Under the pieces are notes generated by a model. It had not been told where the DNA came from. It saw only the letters and a program-made list of their open reading frames with translations, and did not search any database. Positions 37,967 to 48,358 of a stretch of DNA of 64,000 bases are shown in pieces. How positions within the stretch are numbered: the first letter of the stretch is position 1; every line of letters begins with the position of its first letter. Origin of the DNA: Sphingosinicellaceae bacterium (GTDB lineage Bacteria > Pseudomonadota > Alphaproteobacteria > Sphingomonadales > Sphingomonadaceae); contig CP079108.1 in the NCBI GenBank assembly GCA_019285715.1, positions 2,557,001 through 2,621,000 on the forward strand. The letters are read 5' to 3'. The translations under genes were made by a program, and so were the position numbers.

Positions 37967-39160
37967 TCAGCGCGCTCCGAACTTGTAGACGATGACGTTG
38001 CGGTAGGTCTGGCCGGGCTCGAGCCGCGCCGATCCGAACGCCGGCTGGTTGGGTGTATCGGGGAACAGTTGTGGTTCGAAAACCAGTGCGTCACCCTGCC
38101 GGTAAAGGTTGCCCGACTTGCCGATGACGGTGCCGTCGAGGAAGTTGCCCGAGTAGAACTGCAGCCCCGGCTGGTTCGACCACAGCGCGAAGCGACGTCC
38201 CGACACCGGCTCGCTGACCGTCGCCATCAGGTGGTTGGCGGGCGTCGGCGTCGGTCCGATCACCCAGTTGTGGTCGTAGCCGCGACCGAGGACGATCTGC
38301 TGGTCGTGGCCGTCGCGGACCCCATTACCGACAGCACGCGGTGTGCGGAAGTCGAACACGGTGCCGGCAACCGGCTTCAGCTCGCCGGTCGGGATAAGCG
38401 TCGCGTCGACGGGCGTGAAGCTGTCGGCGGGGATGGTCACGAGGTGCCCCATCGCGCCGCCGGCCGAGCCCTCGCCGCCGAGGTTCCAGTACGCGTGGCT
38501 GGTGATGTTGACGATCGTCGGCCGGTCGGTGGTGGCGCGGTACTCGATGGTCAGCACGCTCGCCTCGTCGAGCGAATAGACTGCGTCCACGGTCAAGGTG
38601 CCGGGAAAGCCCTGGTCGCCGTCGCGGCTGACGTGGCGCAAGGTGACCGAGGCGGTCGGGCCCGACGTCACGCCGACGACGTCCCACAACACCTTGTCGA
38701 ACCCGACCGTGCCGCCGTGAAGCGAGTTCGGGCCGTCGTTGACGGGCGCTTGGTAGCTGGTGCCATCGAGAGTGAACCTGCCCTTGGCGATGCGATTGGC
38801 GAAGCGCCCGACGGTCGCGCCGAAGTACGACGGCTTGGCGAGATACCCCGCCATGTCCGCGCAGCCGAGCGCGACATCGGCCCGGCTGCCGTCCCGCCCC
38901 GGCAACACCACCGCCTGCAATGTCGCGCCCCAGGCGATCACTGTCACCGCGACGCCCGCCTGGTTGGTCAGCGTCACCGCCGCGACCGGACGTCCGTCGG
39001 CCAACGCTCCGAAGGTCGACGTCGACGCGTCCACGCTCCCCACCGCCGAGCCCGCCGACGCCGTACCGACCCGTCCGTCCATCGCTCGCGACACCCTTCC
39101 CAACACTCCGACCACTATCGCCCCGATACCGGGCGGAGCAACCGGCCGTAAGCGTGTCAT
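37967..39160 (-). CDS. galM: exported aldose 1-epimerase (galactose mutarotase family)
   Basis: Interconverts alpha and beta anomers of aldoses. The 397-residue protein shows the mutarotase motifs GATVGRFANRIAKGRF, NDGPNSLHGGTVGFDKVLWDV, NITSHAYWNLGGEG (catalytic His), YDHNWVIG and VFEPQLFPDTPNQP with the catalytic Glu. The N-terminal 50 residues before STFG are hydrophobic and Ser/Gly/Ala-rich and may be an export signal, though no clean cleavage site is seen. ATG 39160 chosen; 39082 is the alternative. It ends against the repeated intergenic element and faces the FCD regulator. Confidence 0.88.
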   Translation of the reverse strand: MTRLRPVAPPGIGAIVVGVLGRVSRAMDGRVGTASAGSAVGSVDASTSTFGALADGRPVAAVTLTNQAGVAVTVIAWGATLQAVVLPGRDGSRADVALGCADMAGYLAKPSYFGATVGRFANRIAKGRFTLDGTSYQAPVNDGPNSLHGGTVGFDKVLWDVVGVTSGPTASVTLRHVSRDGDQGFPGTLTVDAVYSLDEASVLTIEYRATTDRPTIVNITSHAYWNLGGEGSAGGAMGHLVTIPADSFTPVDATLIPTGELKPVAGTVFDFRTPRAVGNGVRDGHDQQIVLGRGYDHNWVIGPTPTPANHLMATVSEPVSGRRFALWSNQPGLQFYSGNFLDGTVIGKSGNLYRQGDALVFEPQLFPDTPNQPAFGSARLEPGQTYRNVIVYKFGAR

Positions 39161-39247
39161 TGCAGCCACCGCGAACCAGTCTTTTTCGCCGCATGTAACG
39201 ACGGGGTATTCTTCTGCTATGCACCGCACTTGGACGTGGGGGCACGG

Positions 39248-40411
39248 ATGTTTGGTTGGAACGGTGCACGTTCTTCGGCGGGCGCATTGGCGTCCGTGGG
39301 CACGTGGGCAACGGACTGGTTGATGCAGGCGGGTCCCGAGAATGGGCCGGCGATCCGGCAACGCATCACCAGCGAACTGCATCAGGCGGTGCCGATCTTC
39401 GGCGGCGGCGGCATCAGCACGGTGGCCGTAGCGGTCACGCTGGCGCAGCAACTCGGTCATCCGTTGCTCGTCGCGTGGGCCGCCAGCGAGGCCTTGCTAA
39501 TGGCGGCGCGACTGGTGCTGACATGGCTAGGACGGCGTCCGGCGCGCACCGGCCTGCCGTGGACGCCGAAAGGCCTGCTGATCCTTGAGATTGCCGGCGC
39601 GGCGAGCGTCGGATTTGGCACCACGGCGGCAATCCTGACCGGCCAATGGATGGGTATCGTGATCGGCTGGATGTCGGCCACGGCATTCGCCGGCGAGACC
39701 TGTGTCCGCAACCTTGGCACCCTGCGGCTGGTCACGACCATGTTATGCCTCGGCGCGGCTCCGCCGATCGCCGCGTGCCTGTTCACCGGAGTGCCTCTCC
39801 TCCAGATCGCGGGGGTGCTGACGGCAGTCTACACCGCCCGGATGATCTTCTCCGCGACGCGGCTGAGCAGCGTGCTGGTGGATACGATGCGCGCCGAGCG
39901 CGAGAACGATCATCGCGCCCGCCATGACAAGCTCACCGGCCTGCTCAACCGTGCCGGCCTCGAGCGCGAGATCGAGCTTATGCGCAATGATCACCCGCGG
40001 ACCAACCTGACCTTGTTCTTCATCGACCTCGACAGCTTCAAACTGGTCAACGACACCCACGGCCACGACACCGGCGACCAGTTACTGCGCGCCGTTGCCG
40101 AGCAGTTGCTGGAGCTGGTCGGGGCGCGGGACATCGTCGCACGCATCGGCGGCGACGAATTTGTAGTCGTGACTGCACTGAAACTCGTCGAGCCTACAGA
40201 ATTCGGGCGCGCGATCCTGTCTGCGATCAACTCCGCTCAACACGAAGTCAGCCTCAGCCGCACGACCGTCACTGCAAGCATCGGAGTAGCTCAAACGACA
40301 GTCGATGGCAGCGAGCTCGCCGACTTGATGAAGGCAGCCGACCTGCAGCTGTATCACGCCAAACATGCCGGCGGGTCGCGCTGCATGGTTGCGGACATCG
40401 ACGCCGCCTGA
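39248..40411 (+). CDS. membrane-bound diguanylate cyclase (GGDEF)
   Basis: Makes c-di-GMP from two GTP. The 387-residue protein has an N-terminal block of about six hydrophobic segments (residues 40-205) acting as a membrane sensor, a short linker, and a GGDEF domain from about residue 220: [32 protein letters not shown], and an intact RIGGDEF catalytic loop near residue 300. The inhibitory I-site is degenerate: the usual R-x-x-D before the loop reads GARD, losing the Arg. ATG 39248 preferred (39230 and 39323 possible). Heads the signalling island. Confidence 0.9.
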
Positions 40412-41483
40412 GGCGTGCACCGCTGTTGGCAACGCGGCTCGAATTACACTCCCGGGATCGCCTGATGCCCAGATCGTGCAGTGCGGCCTGGGCTAGCTAA
40501 GACCTCGCTTAGGGACCGCTCCCCGCAAACAACGTCCTCGACTTGCGAAGCCTACACCCGACAGGGGCATCGCGACAAAAAAGCGGCAAGCACACTGATT
40601 CGATCCGGCCAGGATCGAGTCTAAAGCACTGCCATCTGGAACCATGTCCAAATAAAAGAACGCACGCAGTTATTGCATGCGCACTACAATGTCCGCCAAC
40701 ACAGCTAGATTGCTCGCTGGCGTACCGATCAACACGGTACGCCAACCACCAGAACAGCTGGCAAGCACGCCAACCCGAATCGCTTACCCGTCGAAACGGC
40801 GGTTCGGACACAACGATCCCCCGGAAATCGGGCGAAAATTATGCAATCACAAATAAAGCCACGGTATGCCGCAGAAATAAATGCGCGACAAAACGCTAGA
40901 GTTAACTATTGTTAATCATTCGGCCACGGCTTCAGACGTTAGATCAGAACTGAAACGATCAGCTGACCGGACGGATATCGCCACCCGAGTGCGAGTCAGT
41001 GGTGAAGCCGAAGAAACGAGCGATAAGATCGAGCATGTAAGCCTCCGCGAGACAACCAAACGTCGTCAGCGGTCGGTTAGCATGCCGAACGCGACCGCGC
41101 AAGCGCCCGCACACAGATTTTTGGAATTTTTTTTCGATCCGCTCGTGTCAGAGGCGGATCGGGCACGACGAAATTCCATCACTGCCAGTGCTGGCCAATT
41201 GCTGGCTCTCGTTAAAAACAGTCAATCCCGAAGACTAGTTCATCACGGGTCGTCATTTCGCTCCTAAACTTATCAATCCATGATAACTTCACAGCCGCAA
41301 TCAAACATAATACTTCGAAATATAAACCTAATCATCACGACTAGCTCACGTCGTTTAACTTGGGTTTAGGAAAATCATTTAGCATCGACGTCAGCCGAGA
41401 CCTTCAAGTCGTTACTTTGTCGATATTGGTCTACAAGTTCAGAGCCACTGTCTAGATTTTCCGGAAACTATTGGTAAGGGAAA
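40412..41483. other. 1-kb AT-richer gap, no confident gene
   Basis: About 1070 bp between the GGDEF gene and the small peptide gene. Base composition is visibly lower in G+C than the flanks, and short frames here (such as 40881-41267 on plus, 128 codons) lack any domain pattern and have unusual codon usage. The region contains a perfect 10-bp inverted repeat at 40718-40744, T-runs near 41117-41134, and many A/T blocks near 41270-41480 suitable for promoters of the downstream signalling operon. It may be a foreign insert, a decayed gene or a long regulatory region. Confidence 0.6.
40718..40744. promoter_or_regulatory. perfect 10-bp inverted repeat
   Basis: TGGCGTACCG (40718-40727) and CGGTACGCCA (40735-40744) are exact reverse complements around a 7-base loop. 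It lies alone in the AT-richer gap, with no T-run after it, so it is better read as a protein-binding site or structured RNA stem than a terminator. No partner gene is obvious. Confidence 0.5.
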
Positions 41484-41588
41484 ATGACTGCAAATATCCG
41501 CTTACTGGCAACCTTTGTGAACGCGCTAATTTTACTAGTACAGATGATTCTGGTAATGCCGTCCTTCGCAGAATGGCTGAGCAAATGA
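41484..41588 (+). CDS. 34-residue membrane peptide coupled to EAL gene
   Basis: A short frame of 35 codons (ATG 41484 to TGA 41586-41588) encodes one hydrophobic helix: MTANIRLLATFVNALILLVQ begins the peptide and ILVMPSFAEWLSK ends it. AAGGGA sits 4 bases before the ATG. The TGA overlaps the ATG of the EAL gene (ATGA, 41585-41588), the standard arrangement for translational coupling. The EAL protein itself begins with a hydrophobic helix. I know of no family for this peptide. It could be a leader peptide or a small membrane partner. Confidence 0.6.
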   Translation: MTANIRLLATFVNALILLVQMILVMPSFAEWLSK

Positions 41589-42598
41589 TTACCTACGCGA
41601 TCGTGATAACGCTTTGTGGCTTGGCATGGGCCCTGCTGTATCGTCTGGTTCCTGACCGGGGCACGGGGGAGCCGGTGATCAGCTCGCCGTCGGCCGATCA
41701 GCGGCGCTTGCTTCGCGACCTGCCGGTGGCCCTCACCAACGGCGAGATTTTCCTCGTCTATCAGCCCAAGTTGCGGCTTCGGAATGGTGAGGTCGATGGG
41801 GTCGAAGCGCTGGTGCGCTGGAACCATCCGACGCTGGGCGGCATCGCACGCAAATCGCTGATACCGCTTGCCGAGGAGCGCGGGCGCATTCGCGAACTGA
41901 CGATCTGGGTGCTGCGCCAGGCACTCGCCGACCAGGCACGTCTAGCTGCGAGCGGCCGCACGATCGCGGTCCACATCAACGTCTCGGCCGGACTGCTGAC
42001 GGATGCCGATTTCGTGCGCGACGTCTGCACGCTGGTCGGGCCGGCGACCGGCGTTATCGGCCTCGAGATAACCGAGACGGCCTTCATCGAAAATTCGCCG
42101 CTGGCGTTGATAAACCTGCAGCGCATGATCAACCAGGGCATCTCGGTATCGATCGACGATTATGGATCGGGAATGTCGTCGCTGGCCTACCTGAAGGAGT
42201 TGCCGGCGAAGGAGCTCAAGATCGACAAGATGTTCGTCAGCGGCATGACCATGAGCCACCGGGACCCGCTGATCGTGCGGTCGACGATCGATCTTGCCCA
42301 TGCGCTCGGCCTCACCGTGGTCGCCGAAGGCGTCGAGAGCCTCGGCGCGCTGGCCCTGCTGCGGGTGATGGGCTGCGACTATGCGCAGGGCTTCCTGATC
42401 AGCCCGGCACTCCCGATCGGCGAACTCGAGGTCTATCTCGACGAGGGCTCCCACCGCACCATCCTGTCGGATGCGGCGGCGAGCGTCAGGCCGCCGACGG
42501 CGTTCTGGGCGCGCATCGGGCGTGATGACGGGTCCGATACGCCCCACGGCGAGCCGCAGCGGGGCGACAGTCCGACGTCCGCCGCCGTCACCGGTTAG
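41585..42598 (+). CDS. membrane-anchored EAL-domain c-di-GMP phosphodiesterase
   Basis: Hydrolyses c-di-GMP. The 337-residue protein has one N-terminal membrane helix (MITYAIVITLCGLAWALLYR) and an EAL domain from about residue 45. Catalytic residues are present: EALVRW, HINVSAG (Asn), LEITETAF, SIDDYGSGMSSLAYLK (DDYG in place of DDFG), KIDKMFV, VVAEGVES, QGFLI. It is therefore predicted active. The C-terminal tail is hydrophilic and Pro-rich. ATG 41585 is chosen because it overlaps the small-peptide stop. The in-frame region upstream of it lacks a good start. Next gene begins 6 bp downstream. Confidence 0.92.
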   Translation: MITYAIVITLCGLAWALLYRLVPDRGTGEPVISSPSADQRRLLRDLPVALTNGEIFLVYQPKLRLRNGEVDGVEALVRWNHPTLGGIARKSLIPLAEERGRIRELTIWVLRQALADQARLAASGRTIAVHINVSAGLLTDADFVRDVCTLVGPATGVIGLEITETAFIENSPLALINLQRMINQGISVSIDDYGSGMSSLAYLKELPAKELKIDKMFVSGMTMSHRDPLIVRSTIDLAHALGLTVVAEGVESLGALALLRVMGCDYAQGFLISPALPIGELEVYLDEGSHRTILSDAAASVRPPTAFWARIGRDDGSDTPHGEPQRGDSPTSAAVTG

Positions 42599-42603
42599 GC
42601 GCG

Positions 42604-45126
42604 ATGCGGCGCTCTGCCCGGTGTGCCATACTCGCACTGCTAGTCGTTGCGAGCTCGCCCATCGGTGCGCAGTCGCTACCCGCCGCGAGCCAGACTGAGC
42701 CCGCCGACTGGGTGACCGGCCTCAGGAAGGTCGTGCAAACCGACCCTGGGCGTGGCGAGGCGCTCGCCGCCGGCATCGAAGCAAAGGCTCGGAAGCTGCC
42801 AGCGACGCCGCAGACGCGGATGACTATCCTGACGGCCCAGTATTTCCGCGCCGAGGCCCTGATCCAGCTCAATCGTTCGGAGGCGGCCGAGCCGATCATA
42901 GAAGCGGCGCTTGCCGACCTGCCCGCAACCGCGGCGGACACCAAGCTCCACGGCGACCTGCTGCTCGCCCGCGCGGGCGTCGCCAGCAGCGCGGGCAAGG
43001 CCGCCAAGGCGCTCCAGGACTATCAGTCCGCGTACCGGATCTTTGTCCGCGCCAGGGTGCCGCGGAGCCAGGCCATCGCGCTGATGGGGATCGGTTCGAT
43101 TTACCAGGACGCCGGCGATTTCCAGAACGTGCTCGAATACTACGGGCAAGCCGAGGACGCCTTTCCGGGAGACACTTCGCTCAGCCTGTCGAGCAGTAAC
43201 AACCAGGCCAACGCGCTGGCCGACCTCCATCAGTATCGTGCCGCCGAGCTCAAGTATCGCGACGCTCTCGGCTACGCCAAGAAGCTCGGGAGTCCGGTCC
43301 TCGAAGCTCGCATCCTCAACAATATCGCCGGCACGCAAATCGATACCGGCCAGCTCGATGTTGCCGAGGCGACACTGCAGCGCGGGCTCGGGATTGCCGA
43401 GTCCGAGGCCGGGGCGGCCGAATGGCGACCGCTGTTGCTCGGGACCAAGGCCCGGCTGGAGGTTGCACGGCACCGACCGGAGGCCGCAATCCGCTTGATC
43501 GAGGAGGCCGTCCGAGGCAAGGCCCCCGCGGACATCGCCGACCAGTCCTACCGCGACCTGCACCGCACCGCGTTCCTTGCCTACAAGGCGGTAGGCGACA
43601 GCCGGCAGGCGCTCGATCACTTCGAAGTCTACAGCAAGCTCGACGACGAGGGTCGTTCGCTGGTCACGCAGACCAATGCGTCGCTGCTCGGCGCGCAGTT
43701 CAGCTCCGAGCGCCTGAAGGCCCGAATTGCCAATCAAAAGGCCAGTATTGCCAATCAAAAAGCCAGCATATCTGATCTGAAGGCGGACCAGTTGCGCATC
43801 CAGGCGCGGCAGAACGCGCTCATCCTCGGCGGCCTGCTCGCCATCGTCAGCATCGTCGTCATCGCGCTGAGTCTGTACCTGCGCAGCCTGCGCCGCAGCC
43901 GCAACACGATCCGCGGCGCGAACGAGACGCTGTCCCGCGTGAACGTCGAGCTCGAGCACGCGCTGACCGCCAAGTCGCGCTTCCTCGCGACGACCAGCCA
44001 CGAGATCCGCACGCCCCTCAACGGCGTCCTCGGCATGACCCAGGTCCTGCTTGCCGACCCGACCGTGCGCAGCGACGTTCGCGAGCGCATCGCGCTGGTC
44101 CACGGGGCCGGCGAGTCGATGCGCGCGCTGGTCGACGACATCCTCGAGTTCGCCAAGATCGATGCCGGCAACGTCGATACCGTGAAAGCCGACATGGACC
44201 TCCACGCCCTCCTCCACACCGTCGTCGAGTTCTGGCAGGCGCAAGCGACGACCAAGGGGCTGAGCCTGACGCTCGAGCTCGGCGACGAGGTCCCGCGGCA
44301 TATCGTGGAGGACGAGCGACGGGTCCGGCAGGTGCTGCTCAACCTGCTGTCCAACGCGATCAAGTTCACGCTTGCCGGCAGTGTCGTCGTCAAGGCGAGC
44401 GTCGTGACGACTGGCTTGGTCGAAAGCCTCGCGGTCGCGGTCGTCGATACCGGAGTCGGCATTCCGGACGAGGCCTTCGAGACGATTTTCGAGAAGTTCA
44501 GCCAGCTCGACACCAGCACGACGCGCAACTTCGGCGGCACCGGCCTCGGCCTCGCGATCTCGCGCAGCATCGCCGAAGCCCTTGGCGGCGACATTGGCGT
44601 CAGCAGTACGTCCGGTTCGGGCTCGACCTTCACCCTGACACTGCCGCTGGTCCGCGCCGCACCGCGGGTCGTCGCGGCCCCCAGCGCCGGTAGCCACGCG
44701 GCCGCCGGAATGGCGCAGGCCCACGTCATGCTGGTCGGCGGCGGCCTGATCGGCCAGAGCGTCATTCGCAACTTGCTTGGCGGAACAGTTGAGGCCTTCA
44801 GCGCCGCTGCAACCCTGGAGGCGGCGCTCGCACACCCGCAGATCGGCGATGCCGACGTCGTCATCGTCGACACGTCGACGGTCGGCAGCGACCTCGACGA
44901 GCTGTTTCAGGGCCTTGCAACGGGTAAAGCGCGACCACGGATCGTCGTAATCCTGCCGGCCGGCGACGCCTCCGCGGGTGCCGGGCTTGTCGCAGACGGT
45001 GTCGACTGCGTCCTTGCGCGACCGATCGGCGGTGCAGGCCTGATTGCGGCCCTGGAGGAACTATTCCGGGGGCTGGACGAATCCGTCAAGAAAGAACAGG
45101 TAAAGGTCGATCACGGAGCCGCGTAA
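42604..45126 (+). CDS. TPR sensor histidine kinase with degenerate receiver
   Basis: An 840-residue kinase: signal peptide (residues 1-23), a periplasmic TPR-type helical sensor (about 30-350), a short coiled segment with repeated ANQKASI units, a membrane helix (about 400-425), HisKA with phospho-His 466 in TTSHEIRTPLNGVLG, and HATPase with NLLSNAIKF, DTGVGIP and GGTGLGLAIS. The C-terminal receiver-like domain (about 700-830) lacks the acidic pair (LVGGGL where D-D is expected) and the Lys (LARPIG). It follows the EAL gene by 6 bp and precedes a free-standing receiver. Confidence 0.92.
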   Translation: MRRSARCAILALLVVASSPIGAQSLPAASQTEPADWVTGLRKVVQTDPGRGEALAAGIEAKARKLPATPQTRMTILTAQYFRAEALIQLNRSEAAEPIIEAALADLPATAADTKLHGDLLLARAGVASSAGKAAKALQDYQSAYRIFVRARVPRSQAIALMGIGSIYQDAGDFQNVLEYYGQAEDAFPGDTSLSLSSSNNQANALADLHQYRAAELKYRDALGYAKKLGSPVLEARILNNIAGTQIDTGQLDVAEATLQRGLGIAESEAGAAEWRPLLLGTKARLEVARHRPEAAIRLIEEAVRGKAPADIADQSYRDLHRTAFLAYKAVGDSRQALDHFEVYSKLDDEGRSLVTQTNASLLGAQFSSERLKARIANQKASIANQKASISDLKADQLRIQARQNALILGGLLAIVSIVVIALSLYLRSLRRSRNTIRGANETLSRVNVELEHALTAKSRFLATTSHEIRTPLNGVLGMTQVLLADPTVRSDVRERIALVHGAGESMRALVDDILEFAKIDAGNVDTVKADMDLHALLHTVVEFWQAQATTKGLSLTLELGDEVPRHIVEDERRVRQVLLNLLSNAIKFTLAGSVVVKASVVTTGLVESLAVAVVDTGVGIPDEAFETIFEKFSQLDTSTTRNFGGTGLGLAISRSIAEALGGDIGVSSTSGSGSTFTLTLPLVRAAPRVVAAPSAGSHAAAGMAQAHVMLVGGGLIGQSVIRNLLGGTVEAFSAAATLEAALAHPQIGDADVVIVDTSTVGSDLDELFQGLATGKARPRIVVILPAGDASAGAGLVADGVDCVLARPIGGAGLIAALEELFRGLDESVKKEQVKVDHGAA

Positions 45127-45152
45127 CTAACCAAACTAAGGGGCGAAGCGCT

Positions 45153-45545
45153 GTGCAGATCTTGTTCGTCGAGGACGATGCGATGAACCGCCGGGTGGTG
45201 CGGGACATGCTGCGCGTCGGCGGCGTCGAGATGAGCGAGGCAGCCGACGCCGAAACCGGCCTGAAGCTCATCGACGAGGAAGATTATGACCTCGTGCTGA
45301 TGGACCTGCGCATGCCCGGCGTTGACGGCCTGACCGCGATCCAGCGGATCCGTGCCCGTGGCGACGTCAAGTCGACGATCCCGATCATCGTCGTGACCGC
45401 CGATACCGCCGCCAACCTGCGCAGCACCTGCCTGTCCAACGGCGCCGACGACCTGCTGCTCAAGCCGGTGGCGATGGAAGACCTGTTCGAAGCCATCGGC
45501 CGGCTGACCGCGTCGCGGTCGAGCGGTTCCACGGTTCCCATCTGA
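45153..45545 (+). CDS. single-domain response regulator (CheY/DivK-like)
   Basis: A 130-residue receiver protein: FVEDDAMNRRVVRDML (acidic pair), phospho-acceptor D51 in VLMDLRMPGVDG, the Thr of VVTAD, and K104 in LLLKPVAMEDL. No output domain, so it acts by protein contact or as a phospho-shuttle. It starts with GTG 45153 and lies 26 bp after the TPR kinase, whose own receiver is degenerate. The natural inference is that it supplies the functional receiver for that kinase. Confidence 0.9.
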   Translation: MQILFVEDDAMNRRVVRDMLRVGGVEMSEAADAETGLKLIDEEDYDLVLMDLRMPGVDGLTAIQRIRARGDVKSTIPIIVVTADTAANLRSTCLSNGADDLLLKPVAMEDLFEAIGRLTASRSSGSTVPI

Positions 45546-45651: not shown

Positions 45652-45721
45652 ACGAGGCGTGCTAAATTGGCATCGTGACGGAAAGGGATTGCGTTGCCCC
45701 TTACCCAGGGGGCGCAATCAA

Positions 45722-48358
45722 ATGGCGATCAACACCAACGCAGGCACGGTCGACCTGACCAACTGCGACATCGAGCCGATCCACATTCCCGGGACAATCC
45801 TGCCGCATGGCGCCATGCTGGTGCTGGACCCGGATACGCTGGTCGTGCTGCAGTCGGCGGGTGATACTGCTGCGCTGCTCGGGTGGCCGTCGCACACGCT
45901 GACCGGGAAGGCCGTCGATGTCCTGTTCGGCCCGGCGCAGATCGCCTATCTCAGGAAGATCAGTGGTACGTCGGCGCTGGCCAAGCCGCGCCATCTGCTC
46001 GACCCGGCGTTGCGCGTAGTCAGCGACCGCCCGCTCGACGCCAGCCTGCATCGCAACGAGGCCGGGCTGGTTCTGGAGTTCGAGTCCCCCGACGTCGATA
46101 ACCGCTTCGTCGGCGATCCGCTTGCTGCCGTGCAGGAAATGCTCGACGGCCTCGAGGAACAGCCTGCGCTCCAAGGCTTCTGCCAGGCCGGCGCGGAAAG
46201 CGTCCGACGGGTGCTCGGCTACGACCGGGTCATGGTCTACCGCTTCATGCCCGACGAGAGCGGCTGGGTGTACGCAGAGAGCCGCCGCGAAGACATCGAG
46301 CCGTTCCTCGACCTGCATTATCCCGCCACCGATATTCCGGTGCAGGCACGGGCACTATACCTGAAGTCGTGGCTGCGGCTGATCACCGAGGTCGACTACA
46401 CGCCCGCGCCGCTGCTGCCGGTGCTCAGCCCGCTGACTGGCGCACCGCTCGACATGAGCCATGCGACGCTGCGCGATGTCTCGCCGGTGCACCGCGAGTA
46501 TCTGCGCAACATGGGCGTCGGCGCGTCGATGTCGATCTCGATCATCCGGGGCGGCGAATTGTGGGGGCTGATCGCCTGCCATCACTACAGCCCGCGCCGC
46601 CTGCCCCGCCACCTGCGTGCCGTCGCCGAGCTGTTCGGCGCGATGTTCTCGCTGCAGCTCGAAGCCCGCCAGCGCACCGAGCAGCTGAACGCGCGACTCG
46701 CCAACCGGGCGATCCTCCAGACGCTGATGCAGGACCTCTCGCTCGAGGACGATTACGCCGAGGGCCTGCTGCGCCAGGCACCGTTGCTGCTGAGCTATAT
46801 CCAAGGCGGCGGGCTGTCGTTGCGCGGCAGCTTGCAGGGCGGCGTCGCGGTGCGGTTCAGCAGCAAGATCAACTCGTTGGGCGCGACTCCCAACGACGCG
46901 CAGATTGCCGCGCTGGTCGACTGGCTGACTGTCCGGATGGCCGATCACGACGGTGTCTTCGTCACCGACCGGCTCGGCGAACTCTGGCCGCCGGCGAAGG
47001 AATTCGCCGATGTCGGGTCCGGCCTGCTGGCGATCTCGGTGTCGCGGGAGCCCCGTGATTTCATCCTGTGGTTCCGGCCCGAACTGATCGCGACGGTGAC
47101 CTGGGCGGGCAATCCCGACAAGCCGGTCGAGATCATCCCGGAGGGCGAGCGCCTGACGCCGCGAAAGTCGTTTGCAGCCTGGCAGCAGACGGTGCGCGGG
47201 CGTTCCTCGCCGTGGACCGTGCCCGACAGCGATGCCGCGTTCGACCTGCGACTGTCGCTGCTCGAGGTCGTGCTGCGCCGCATCGACGCCGTGGTGCGCG
47301 AACGGACCCGGGTCTCGGAGCGCGACCAGTTGCTGATGGCCGAGCTCGATCACCGGGTGAAGAACACGCTCGCCAATATCCAGGCGCTGGTCGTGCAGAC
47401 GAGCCGGAGCGCCAACTCGCTGACCGGTTTCGTCGAGGACCTCGATGGCCGCATCCGGGCGATGGCCAAGGCGCACAGCCTGCTCACGCAAAGCAACTGG
47501 GAGGGTGTCGCGATCGCGACGCTGATCGGCGACGAACTCGACCCGTATGGCCGGGGCGGCGCCGACCTCAGGGTCGATGGTCCGACCGTCATCCTGACGC
47601 CCAAGGCCTCGCTGTCGCTGTCGCTCGCGGTGCACGAGCTGGCCACCAACGCCGCCAAATACGGTGCGCTGTCGAGGGCCGGCGGACGGGTCAACGTGTC
47701 GTGGCAGAGGCTGGGCGACGGTGAGCTCAGGCTGGTCTGGACCGAGCGCGGCGGACCGCCGGTGGAGGAGCCCAAGCGCCGCGGCTTCGGATCCCGCCTG
47801 ATCGAGCGCGCGCTCGCCCTCGACACCGCGGGCACCTCGACGATCCGCTTCGAGCCCGCGGGCGTGGTCTGCGAGATCACGCTGCCCGCCGCTGCAGTTT
47901 TCCGCCTGACCGATTCCGAACCCGCCCCGCGGGTCATCGAACCAGTGGCGGCGGTGATCGCCGACAACCTGCTGGCGTCGCGACCGCGTATCCTCGTCGT
48001 CGAGGATTCGGCGCTGATCGTGATGACGCTCGAAATGATGTTCGAGGATCTTGGCTGGGACCTCGTCGGCCCGGCGATCAGCGTCGCCGAGGCGCTACCG
48101 TTGGCGCGGGGCGAACAGCTCGACGCCGCGCTGCTCGACGTCAATCTCGATGGTGAACCCTCGTGGCCGGTGGCCGCAATCCTGCAATCGCGCGGCGTCC
48201 CGTTCGCGTTCGCGACGGGTTACGATGCACGGACGGCGCTGCCGGAGGAGTTCAAGGGCGTGTCGGTAATCGGGAAGCCGTTCCGCCTGAACGATATCGC
48301 CGAGCAGCTGCGCCAGCTGATGCGGTCTCCCAGGGTCGACACTCTGGAACCTAGCTAG
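45722..48358 (+). CDS. bphP: bacteriophytochrome histidine kinase (HWE type) with receiver
   Basis: Red/far-red photoreceptor kinase, 878 residues. PAS domain with biliverdin-binding Cys15 in DLTNCDIEPIHIPG, GAF domain with YPATDIPVQARALY and HREYLRNMGVGASMS, PHY domain with the tongue PRKSFAAW, HWE/HisKA2 kinase with H544 in MAELDHRVKNTLANIQ, ATPase ELATNAAKYGALS, and a C-terminal receiver with D806 in LLDVNLDG. ATG 45722 is chosen for the standard N-terminus and preceding leader. No heme oxygenase (bphO) gene is in the window. The 3' end overlaps the convergent tetR by 8 bp. Confidence 0.95.
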   Translation: MAINTNAGTVDLTNCDIEPIHIPGTILPHGAMLVLDPDTLVVLQSAGDTAALLGWPSHTLTGKAVDVLFGPAQIAYLRKISGTSALAKPRHLLDPALRVVSDRPLDASLHRNEAGLVLEFESPDVDNRFVGDPLAAVQEMLDGLEEQPALQGFCQAGAESVRRVLGYDRVMVYRFMPDESGWVYAESRREDIEPFLDLHYPATDIPVQARALYLKSWLRLITEVDYTPAPLLPVLSPLTGAPLDMSHATLRDVSPVHREYLRNMGVGASMSISIIRGGELWGLIACHHYSPRRLPRHLRAVAELFGAMFSLQLEARQRTEQLNARLANRAILQTLMQDLSLEDDYAEGLLRQAPLLLSYIQGGGLSLRGSLQGGVAVRFSSKINSLGATPNDAQIAALVDWLTVRMADHDGVFVTDRLGELWPPAKEFADVGSGLLAISVSREPRDFILWFRPELIATVTWAGNPDKPVEIIPEGERLTPRKSFAAWQQTVRGRSSPWTVPDSDAAFDLRLSLLEVVLRRIDAVVRERTRVSERDQLLMAELDHRVKNTLANIQALVVQTSRSANSLTGFVEDLDGRIRAMAKAHSLLTQSNWEGVAIATLIGDELDPYGRGGADLRVDGPTVILTPKASLSLSLAVHELATNAAKYGALSRAGGRVNVSWQRLGDGELRLVWTERGGPPVEEPKRRGFGSRLIERALALDTAGTSTIRFEPAGVVCEITLPAAAVFRLTDSEPAPRVIEPVAAVIADNLLASRPRILVVEDSALIVMTLEMMFEDLGWDLVGPAISVAEALPLARGEQLDAALLDVNLDGEPSWPVAAILQSRGVPFAFATGYDARTALPEEFKGVSVIGKPFRLNDIAEQLRQLMRSPRVDTLEPS

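Follow-up and report, generated by a model that had tools for sequence, protein, structure and literature searches.

The small open reading frame (ORF) studied here lies in a window of 64,000 nucleotides, the whole stretch of DNA that was analysed, and occupies positions 41484..41588 on the + strand. It starts with an ATG at 41484, stops with a TGA at 41586-41588, and its 34 codons specify the product MTANIRLLATFVNALILLVQMILVMPSFAEWLSK. This 34-aa peptide is one long hydrophobic stretch (best 19-residue Kyte-Doolittle mean 2.47) with one predicted membrane helix at about residues 7-25, and AlphaFold, run with single-sequence input, models it as one helix over residues 2-33 with a mean pLDDT of 89.7. 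An earlier note on this DNA had called the peptide single-helix, as the model does, and had found no known family that fits it. In searches of Pfam (E 0.1) and NCBIfam (E 1) the peptide likewise matched no family, and on this basis a known small protein family was rejected. Just 5' of the frame, 2-4 nt from its ATG, lies the Shine-Dalgarno (SD)-like stretch AAGGGA (41476..41481, + strand), with a duplex energy of -4.5. All duplex energies assume the usual anti-SD letters.

The small ORF runs directly into a gene for an EAL-domain protein of 337 aa (41585..42598, + strand). The ATG of this gene occupies 41585-41587, so that the two frames share exactly the letters ATGA (41585..41588, + strand), confirming the overlap reported in the earlier note. 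The EAL protein begins with an N-terminal hydrophobic segment (best 19-residue mean 1.97), in keeping with the membrane helix claimed for it before, followed by an EAL domain at residues 44-274 (PF00563, E 6.9e-61, 206 bits). Solved EAL domains in the PDB match it at E 3.1e-43, and it was aligned to the EAL domain of MucR. It carries QPK, EAL, INVSA, EITE, DDYGSG, KELKIDK, AEGVE and YAQGF, signature motifs of the domain with known roles. Judged by its domain and motifs, the protein would belong to the EAL phosphodiesterases; the domain is an ordinary one that looks complete, and the protein is probably an enzyme that degrades c-di-GMP.

The EAL frame stays open 5' of 41585 and offers two further starts, an ATG at 41573 and a TTG at 41471..41473 (+ strand), the latter giving a longer EAL protein that spans the small ORF. 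The ATGA junction thus depends on choosing the ATG at 41585. SD duplex energies at the three candidates are -2.0 (ATG 41585), +0.7 (ATG 41573) and -3.5 (TTG 41471). Counted from ATG 41585, 43 residues precede the conserved domain; in six relatives from the nearest genus, with starts chosen by the analyst, the number is 28-48.

Two more genes follow closely on the same strand: a TPR histidine kinase of 840 aa (42604..45126; TPR, HisKA and HATPase_c domains) 5 nt past the EAL stop, and a single-domain response regulator of 130 aa (45153..45545; Response_reg) 26 nt past the kinase. The operon is therefore compact, with a 4-nt overlap between the small ORF and the EAL gene and then gaps of 5 nt and 26 nt. 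Directly after this set, at 45716-48355, lies a bacteriophytochrome with PAS_2, GAF, PHY and HWE kinase domains and a C-terminal receiver domain that scores below the Pfam cut-off. It may provide a light input beside the c-di-GMP genes.

On its 5' side the small ORF is preceded by about 1.07 kb in which no clear gene was seen, beyond which lies a diguanylate cyclase gene (39230-40411). The single longer frame scanned in this stretch, of 128 aa, had no Pfam match above cut-off. The GC content is 51.5% over the ~1.07 kb and drops to 39% immediately before the small ORF, compared with 68% for the genome (400 kb). A consensus scan of 40380-41750 found no sigma-70-like promoter on the + strand; its two promoter-like and four terminator-like sites all lie on the minus strand and are uninformative on where the mRNA starts. 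Two further possibilities were tried and rejected. A riboswitch or structured RNA 5' of the EAL gene found no backing in Rfam at E 5 over 39000-42700, where mir-6790 was the only hit, at 18.4 bits when the gathering score is 78, nor in the folding of 41440-41660, which 197 of 200 shuffles matched or exceeded in stability. A programmed frameshift fusing the two frames was set aside when inspection by eye revealed no slippery heptamer at the junction.

Words that resemble regulatory sites occur upstream of some related EAL genes. The full-site pattern of CtrA is given in the available part of PMC8921679 as TTAA-N7-TTAA, and this pattern is present in seven of 20 loci (L072-L091), namely L072, L075, L077-L080 and L086, where it lies 546-649 nt upstream of the aligned EAL start. 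In the window, TTAA-N6-TTAA occurs once, at 40902-40915 (0.01 expected in 64 kb), and L050 has a similar one. A CtrA-regulated phosphodiesterase, Gene1094, described in the same source (PMC8921679, available part), may be related to the EAL protein. In addition, five of eight loci (L010, L048, L050, L051 and L052) carry the DnaA-box-like words TTATTCACA, TGTGGACAA and TGTGGATAA at 36-80 nt upstream of the aligned EAL start; the window contains no TTWTNCACA.

Conservation of the small ORF and its neighbours

The EAL protein was searched in 397 family genomes, which were drawn from a larger group, and 49 matched at E 1e-60 or better, its own included; the best of the others was 62% identical. 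All six genomes examined of the nearest genus have it, and a pattern-based scan of a collection of 84,980 species returned as its best EAL loci what are apparently the same contigs, with identical upstream DNA. Among plasmid sequences, 48 records match the EAL protein, with 51% as the best identity among the matches listed, and the 105 bases of the small ORF match none. At 55 EAL loci, some of them one contig counted twice and many too short to reach the regulator, a kinase match was found in 49 and a response regulator match in 26; at L063 the regulator sits upstream. The EAL gene, the TPR histidine kinase and the single-domain response regulator (41585-45545 in the window) thus form a recurrent cluster in sphingomonads, of which the literature searched held no description.

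The peptide, on the other hand, was found at none of 14 related EAL junctions (L039-L044, L010, L048-L053 and L057), a set of distant relatives (51-63% identical). Other EAL homologues, many with long N-terminal domains, are outside this set and were listed only where they lie on the plus strand of their locus. A search of the 397 family genomes yielded no free-standing homologue: besides itself, the peptide weakly matched 11 other genomes at E 0.05-0.98, each time within an open frame of 159-1116 aa. Only one of the 14 junctions, that of the metagenome-assembled genome L041, has a frame overlapping the EAL start by 4 nt. This frame is unrelated to ours, encodes 46 aa with a hydropathy of 1.70, overlaps as GTGA and is preceded by an SD of dG -5.5; since coupled frames arise in 5-9% of random sequences (see below), one case in 14 is unsurprising. 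Small frames end 14-16 nt 5' of the EAL start in L039 and L057, and a hydrophobic-looking 20-aa frame ends further 5' in L049. In five of the six nearest-genus relatives the EAL start is poor in SD (-3.5 or weaker) and has no such leader.

The first ~35 residues of the EAL protein are themselves poorly conserved, so loss of similarity in this region would be expected even of a real coding sequence. The only other genome of the genus gave no EAL match at E 1e-50, with EAL domains present at 2.8e-43 or weaker, and no kinase match at E 1e-30, an empty answer that alone shows nothing. When its DNA was compared with the window (40 of 830 candidates scored), matches were found at 37.06-37.70 kb and from 49.3 kb onward; between 37.7 and 49.3 kb the 25 matches reported were short patches only, mostly in the GGDEF and EAL genes. 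From 49.3 to 55.6 kb the two genomes are collinear at 70-81% identity. The 37.7-49.3 kb block, which holds the diguanylate cyclase, the small ORF, the EAL gene, the kinase, the regulator and the bacteriophytochrome, may be an island here or a loss in the genus-mate. With only distant relatives (51-63%) to compare and a genus-mate that apparently lacks the block, these comparisons are not a fair test of how conserved the small ORF is.

Codon use and comparison with chance

Codon adaptation of the small ORF is 0.23, compared with 0.62 for the whole EAL gene, 0.43 for the EAL N-terminus and a median of 0.69 for 34-codon windows of genes. This value is lower than that of 99.6% of such windows and of 94% of 179 intergenic ATG frames, and all three frames of the stretch are similarly poor (0.23, 0.22 and 0.29). 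One frame that resembles an Flp pilin has a codon adaptation of 0.25, so a low value does not exclude a gene.

The overlap and the ribosome site distinguish the small ORF little from random sequence. Because the EAL gene begins with ATGA, the TGA is present anyway, and the overlap comes free and is weak evidence. Markov sequences carried an ATG frame of 25-60 codons ending at the EAL ATGA in 1800 of 20000 cases, and in two larger runs in 9142 of 100000 (whole intergenic composition) and 4861 of 100000 (local AT-rich composition). As to the claim that the small ORF has its own ribosome site, the SD-like AAGGGA is indeed present; it is weak, however, since 29% of 3000 random genome positions reach -4.5 or better, and among 7952 random ORFs with the local composition 846 do so.

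Hydrophobicity behaves differently. Over 800 kb of this genome there are 2646 ATG frames of 20-60 aa, and six of them, the small ORF included, reach a hydropathy of 2.2. On inspection by eye the remaining five resemble genes: a 32-aa and a 59-aa membrane protein, and three that we take to be two Flp-type pilins and one DUF1328-like protein. When ORFs of 25-60 aa are considered, 25 of 2098 have a GC content below 50%, and the small ORF is the sole one of these at 2.4 or above, where 0.02-0.06 would be expected from the local nulls. In local AT-rich nulls a hydropathy of at least 2.4 was reached by 11 of 4861 coupled frames and by 7 of 7952 frames in general, and in the null of whole intergenic composition by 1 of 9142 coupled frames; in the Markov null of 1800 coupled frames none reached 2.0. 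These rates, about 0.01-0.2% per frame, come from nulls that preserve dinucleotide composition only, for a frame chosen after the fact from the 64-kb window. A count over 400 kb took ATG frames of 15-60 aa whose stop overlaps, as NTGA, a possible start of a long ORF. Of 56 such frames three reach 2.0: the small ORF and, by eye, two ends of longer membrane-protein genes. Most thymine in the small ORF falls at the second codon position (18 of 29). The hydrophobicity of the small ORF exceeds what simple chance models give.

Elsewhere in the same genome, at C1:585097-585195 (L188), a 32-aa single-helix frame, MAKRRSRSIALGVLLGALALLFFGITIVRMVK, is about as hydrophobic as the small-ORF peptide and ends in GTGA; it presumably resembles the small genes of cytochrome oxidase assembly.

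A proposed translated leader and its rivals

The reading that we tentatively favour, and consider short of probable, is that of a young translated leader, specific to this lineage, in which termination on the small ORF would feed initiation of the EAL gene. The standing given to this reading and to its three rivals is a matter of judgement and was not computed. The small ORF would be the first cistron of the EAL-kinase-regulator operon, presumably transcribed from upstream. Ribosomes would enter at the SD-like site, synthesise a short membrane helix and terminate at the TGA, and then may reinitiate on the overlapping EAL ATG, whose own ribosome-binding site is poor. The main effect would be to set or help translation of the EAL gene, with the peptide possibly a by-product; its origin would be recent and the peptide itself dispensable.

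Several features count for the translated leader. The SD-like site before the small ORF (-4.5) is better than that at the EAL start (-2.0), and a poor EAL site, preceded at 101 nt by a better one and reached by a frame ending exactly on the EAL start, is the layout of termination-reinitiation. The high hydrophobicity, the second-position thymine and the compact operon point the same way. Genes are most commonly spaced by a 4-nt overlap, and a gap of ~20 nt nearly abolished coupling (both in PMC10666635, available part); of 14 overlapping pairs from two other organisms, 13 were strictly coupled in the part of PMC6728339 that could be consulted. Counting against the leader are the poor codon use, the lack of a free-standing homologue in the 397 family genomes, the absence at 14 junctions and the commonness of SD-like sites, as well as the nearest-genus EAL starts that are SD-poor with no leader and the absence of a promoter-like site on the + strand. 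Reinitiation may, moreover, be poor. At native NTGA overlaps in this genome the SD before the second start has a median of -5.45, with only five of 18 at -2.0 or weaker, and removing the SD of the second gene lowered reinitiation in four of five E. coli pairs (PMC6728339, consulted in part).

The most serious rival, which we regard as unlikely, holds that an AT-rich stretch merely happens to be open and is not effectively translated, with the EAL gene starting alone at 41585, 41573 or 41471. Codon use that resembles noncoding DNA and is equally poor in all three frames would be explained in this way, as would the missing peptide in the relatives examined; a coupled frame of 25-60 codons and an SD-like site are both common enough by chance, and the frame was singled out of 64 kb with hindsight. 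AT-rich intergenic DNA itself favours hydrophobic products according to the available part of PMC11188072, although more transmembrane segments are predicted there than for shuffled sequence in most genera. What speaks against a chance frame is that such hydrophobicity is rare in the nulls (11/4861, 1/9142 and 7/7952) and that the other five equally hydrophobic frames of the genome look like genes by eye.

In a second rival, to which we give little credence, the peptide would be a functional subunit with a single helix; by binding the helix of the EAL protein, or the kinase, it would modulate the phosphodiesterase, the overlap serving to match amounts. A hydrophobic segment is present in the peptide (2.47) as in the EAL protein (1.97), a helix is predicted for the peptide, and overlapping pairs in E. 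coli are enriched 4.5-fold for subunits of one complex (PMC10666635, available part). The peptide, however, is not conserved with the EAL gene, which relatives have without it, and the literature searched gave no report of such a partner. The earlier note had offered a regulator and a leader side by side. Of the two, the leader has come out better supported, through the poor EAL SD (-2.0) and the hydrophobic frame ending on the EAL start. What favours a regulator is its position and a membrane helix; the EAL gene and kinase occur together without the peptide, and no result to date points to control of the enzyme by the peptide. As a speculative and improbable elaboration, the peptide and the EAL helix might form a hairpin of two separate chains, a membrane anchor divided at the ATGA junction. 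The peptide would then act in trans on the EAL phosphodiesterase and, through it, on the kinase operon, as a newly born control subunit.

The weakest rival, which we think very doubtful, derives the small ORF from an EAL anchor that once had two helices. A frameshift just before the ATG would have cut off the first helix, and ATGA reinitiation would rescue the second helix with the EAL domain. In its favour are two frames that differ by one base exactly at the junction, a better SD-like site before the first helix and low codon adaptation in both peptide (0.23) and EAL N-terminus (0.43) relative to the EAL gene (0.62). Against it, the six nearest-genus relatives, with 28-48 residues before the domain, much as the 43 from ATG 41585, have no two-helix anchor, although L051, from another genus and with an uncertain start, might have one.

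Under the translated-leader reading, the small ORF would adjoin a signalling enzyme that relatives run without such an ORF. Should the peptide also touch the enzyme, c-di-GMP turnover would have an unusual small control part in it. If neither is true, the locus is a warning that an ATGA overlap with an SD-like stretch is by itself weak evidence for a gene.

Comparison with known systems

Nothing in the literature searched describes the arrangement of a small ORF with an EAL gene, and the locus is best placed by comparison with three described kinds of system. MgtS, AcrZ, CydX and BcsF are single-helix membrane regulators of under ~65 residues that lie beside, or act on, a larger membrane protein, and they are conserved with their partners and have been tested. 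The small ORF likewise encodes a small single helix next to a larger membrane protein but is not conserved with its neighbour: the EAL gene and the kinase occur together in 49 of 55 loci, and the peptide was found at 0 of 14 junctions.

Similar in layout are the termination-reinitiation pairs of PMC6728339 and PMC10666635, which, in the available parts of these sources, share with our locus the -4 nt ATGA overlap, the co-directed genes and the compact operon. Provided that 41585 is the EAL start, the stop/start overlap is present here at 41585-41588. Such pairs usually, though not always, carry an SD ahead of the second start, and at a dG of -2.0 this is lacking here. The locus further differs from these pairs, as far as those parts describe them, in that its upstream gene has 34 codons and is unconserved, in addition to its poor second SD, and in that coupling is predicted.

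The third kind comprises the intergenic ismORFs of Enterobacteriaceae (15-70 codons; PMC11188072, 'The Cryptic Bacterial Microproteome', available part), which are likewise short, hydrophobic, likely transmembrane, encoded in AT-rich DNA and, in part, joined to the next gene by a stop/start overlap. Among co-directed ismORFs about 13% have their stop no more than 10 nt from the following start, and in ~37% of these the two overlap by 1-4 nt (same part of PMC11188072). As a short hydrophobic intergenic frame (34 aa, 2.47) the small ORF resembles this class. The ismORFs of that source were picked as clusters under purifying selection, whereas the small ORF comes from a sphingomonad and showed no homologue in 397 family genomes or at 14 junctions of distant relatives, and for that reason we do not file it as a conserved microprotein. 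Its kind is nevertheless already known, since hydrophobic intergenic small ORFs that end on the start of the next gene are a described class; if translated, the small ORF would show cleanly how a very young hydrophobic ORF can join an operon through overlapping stop and start codons.
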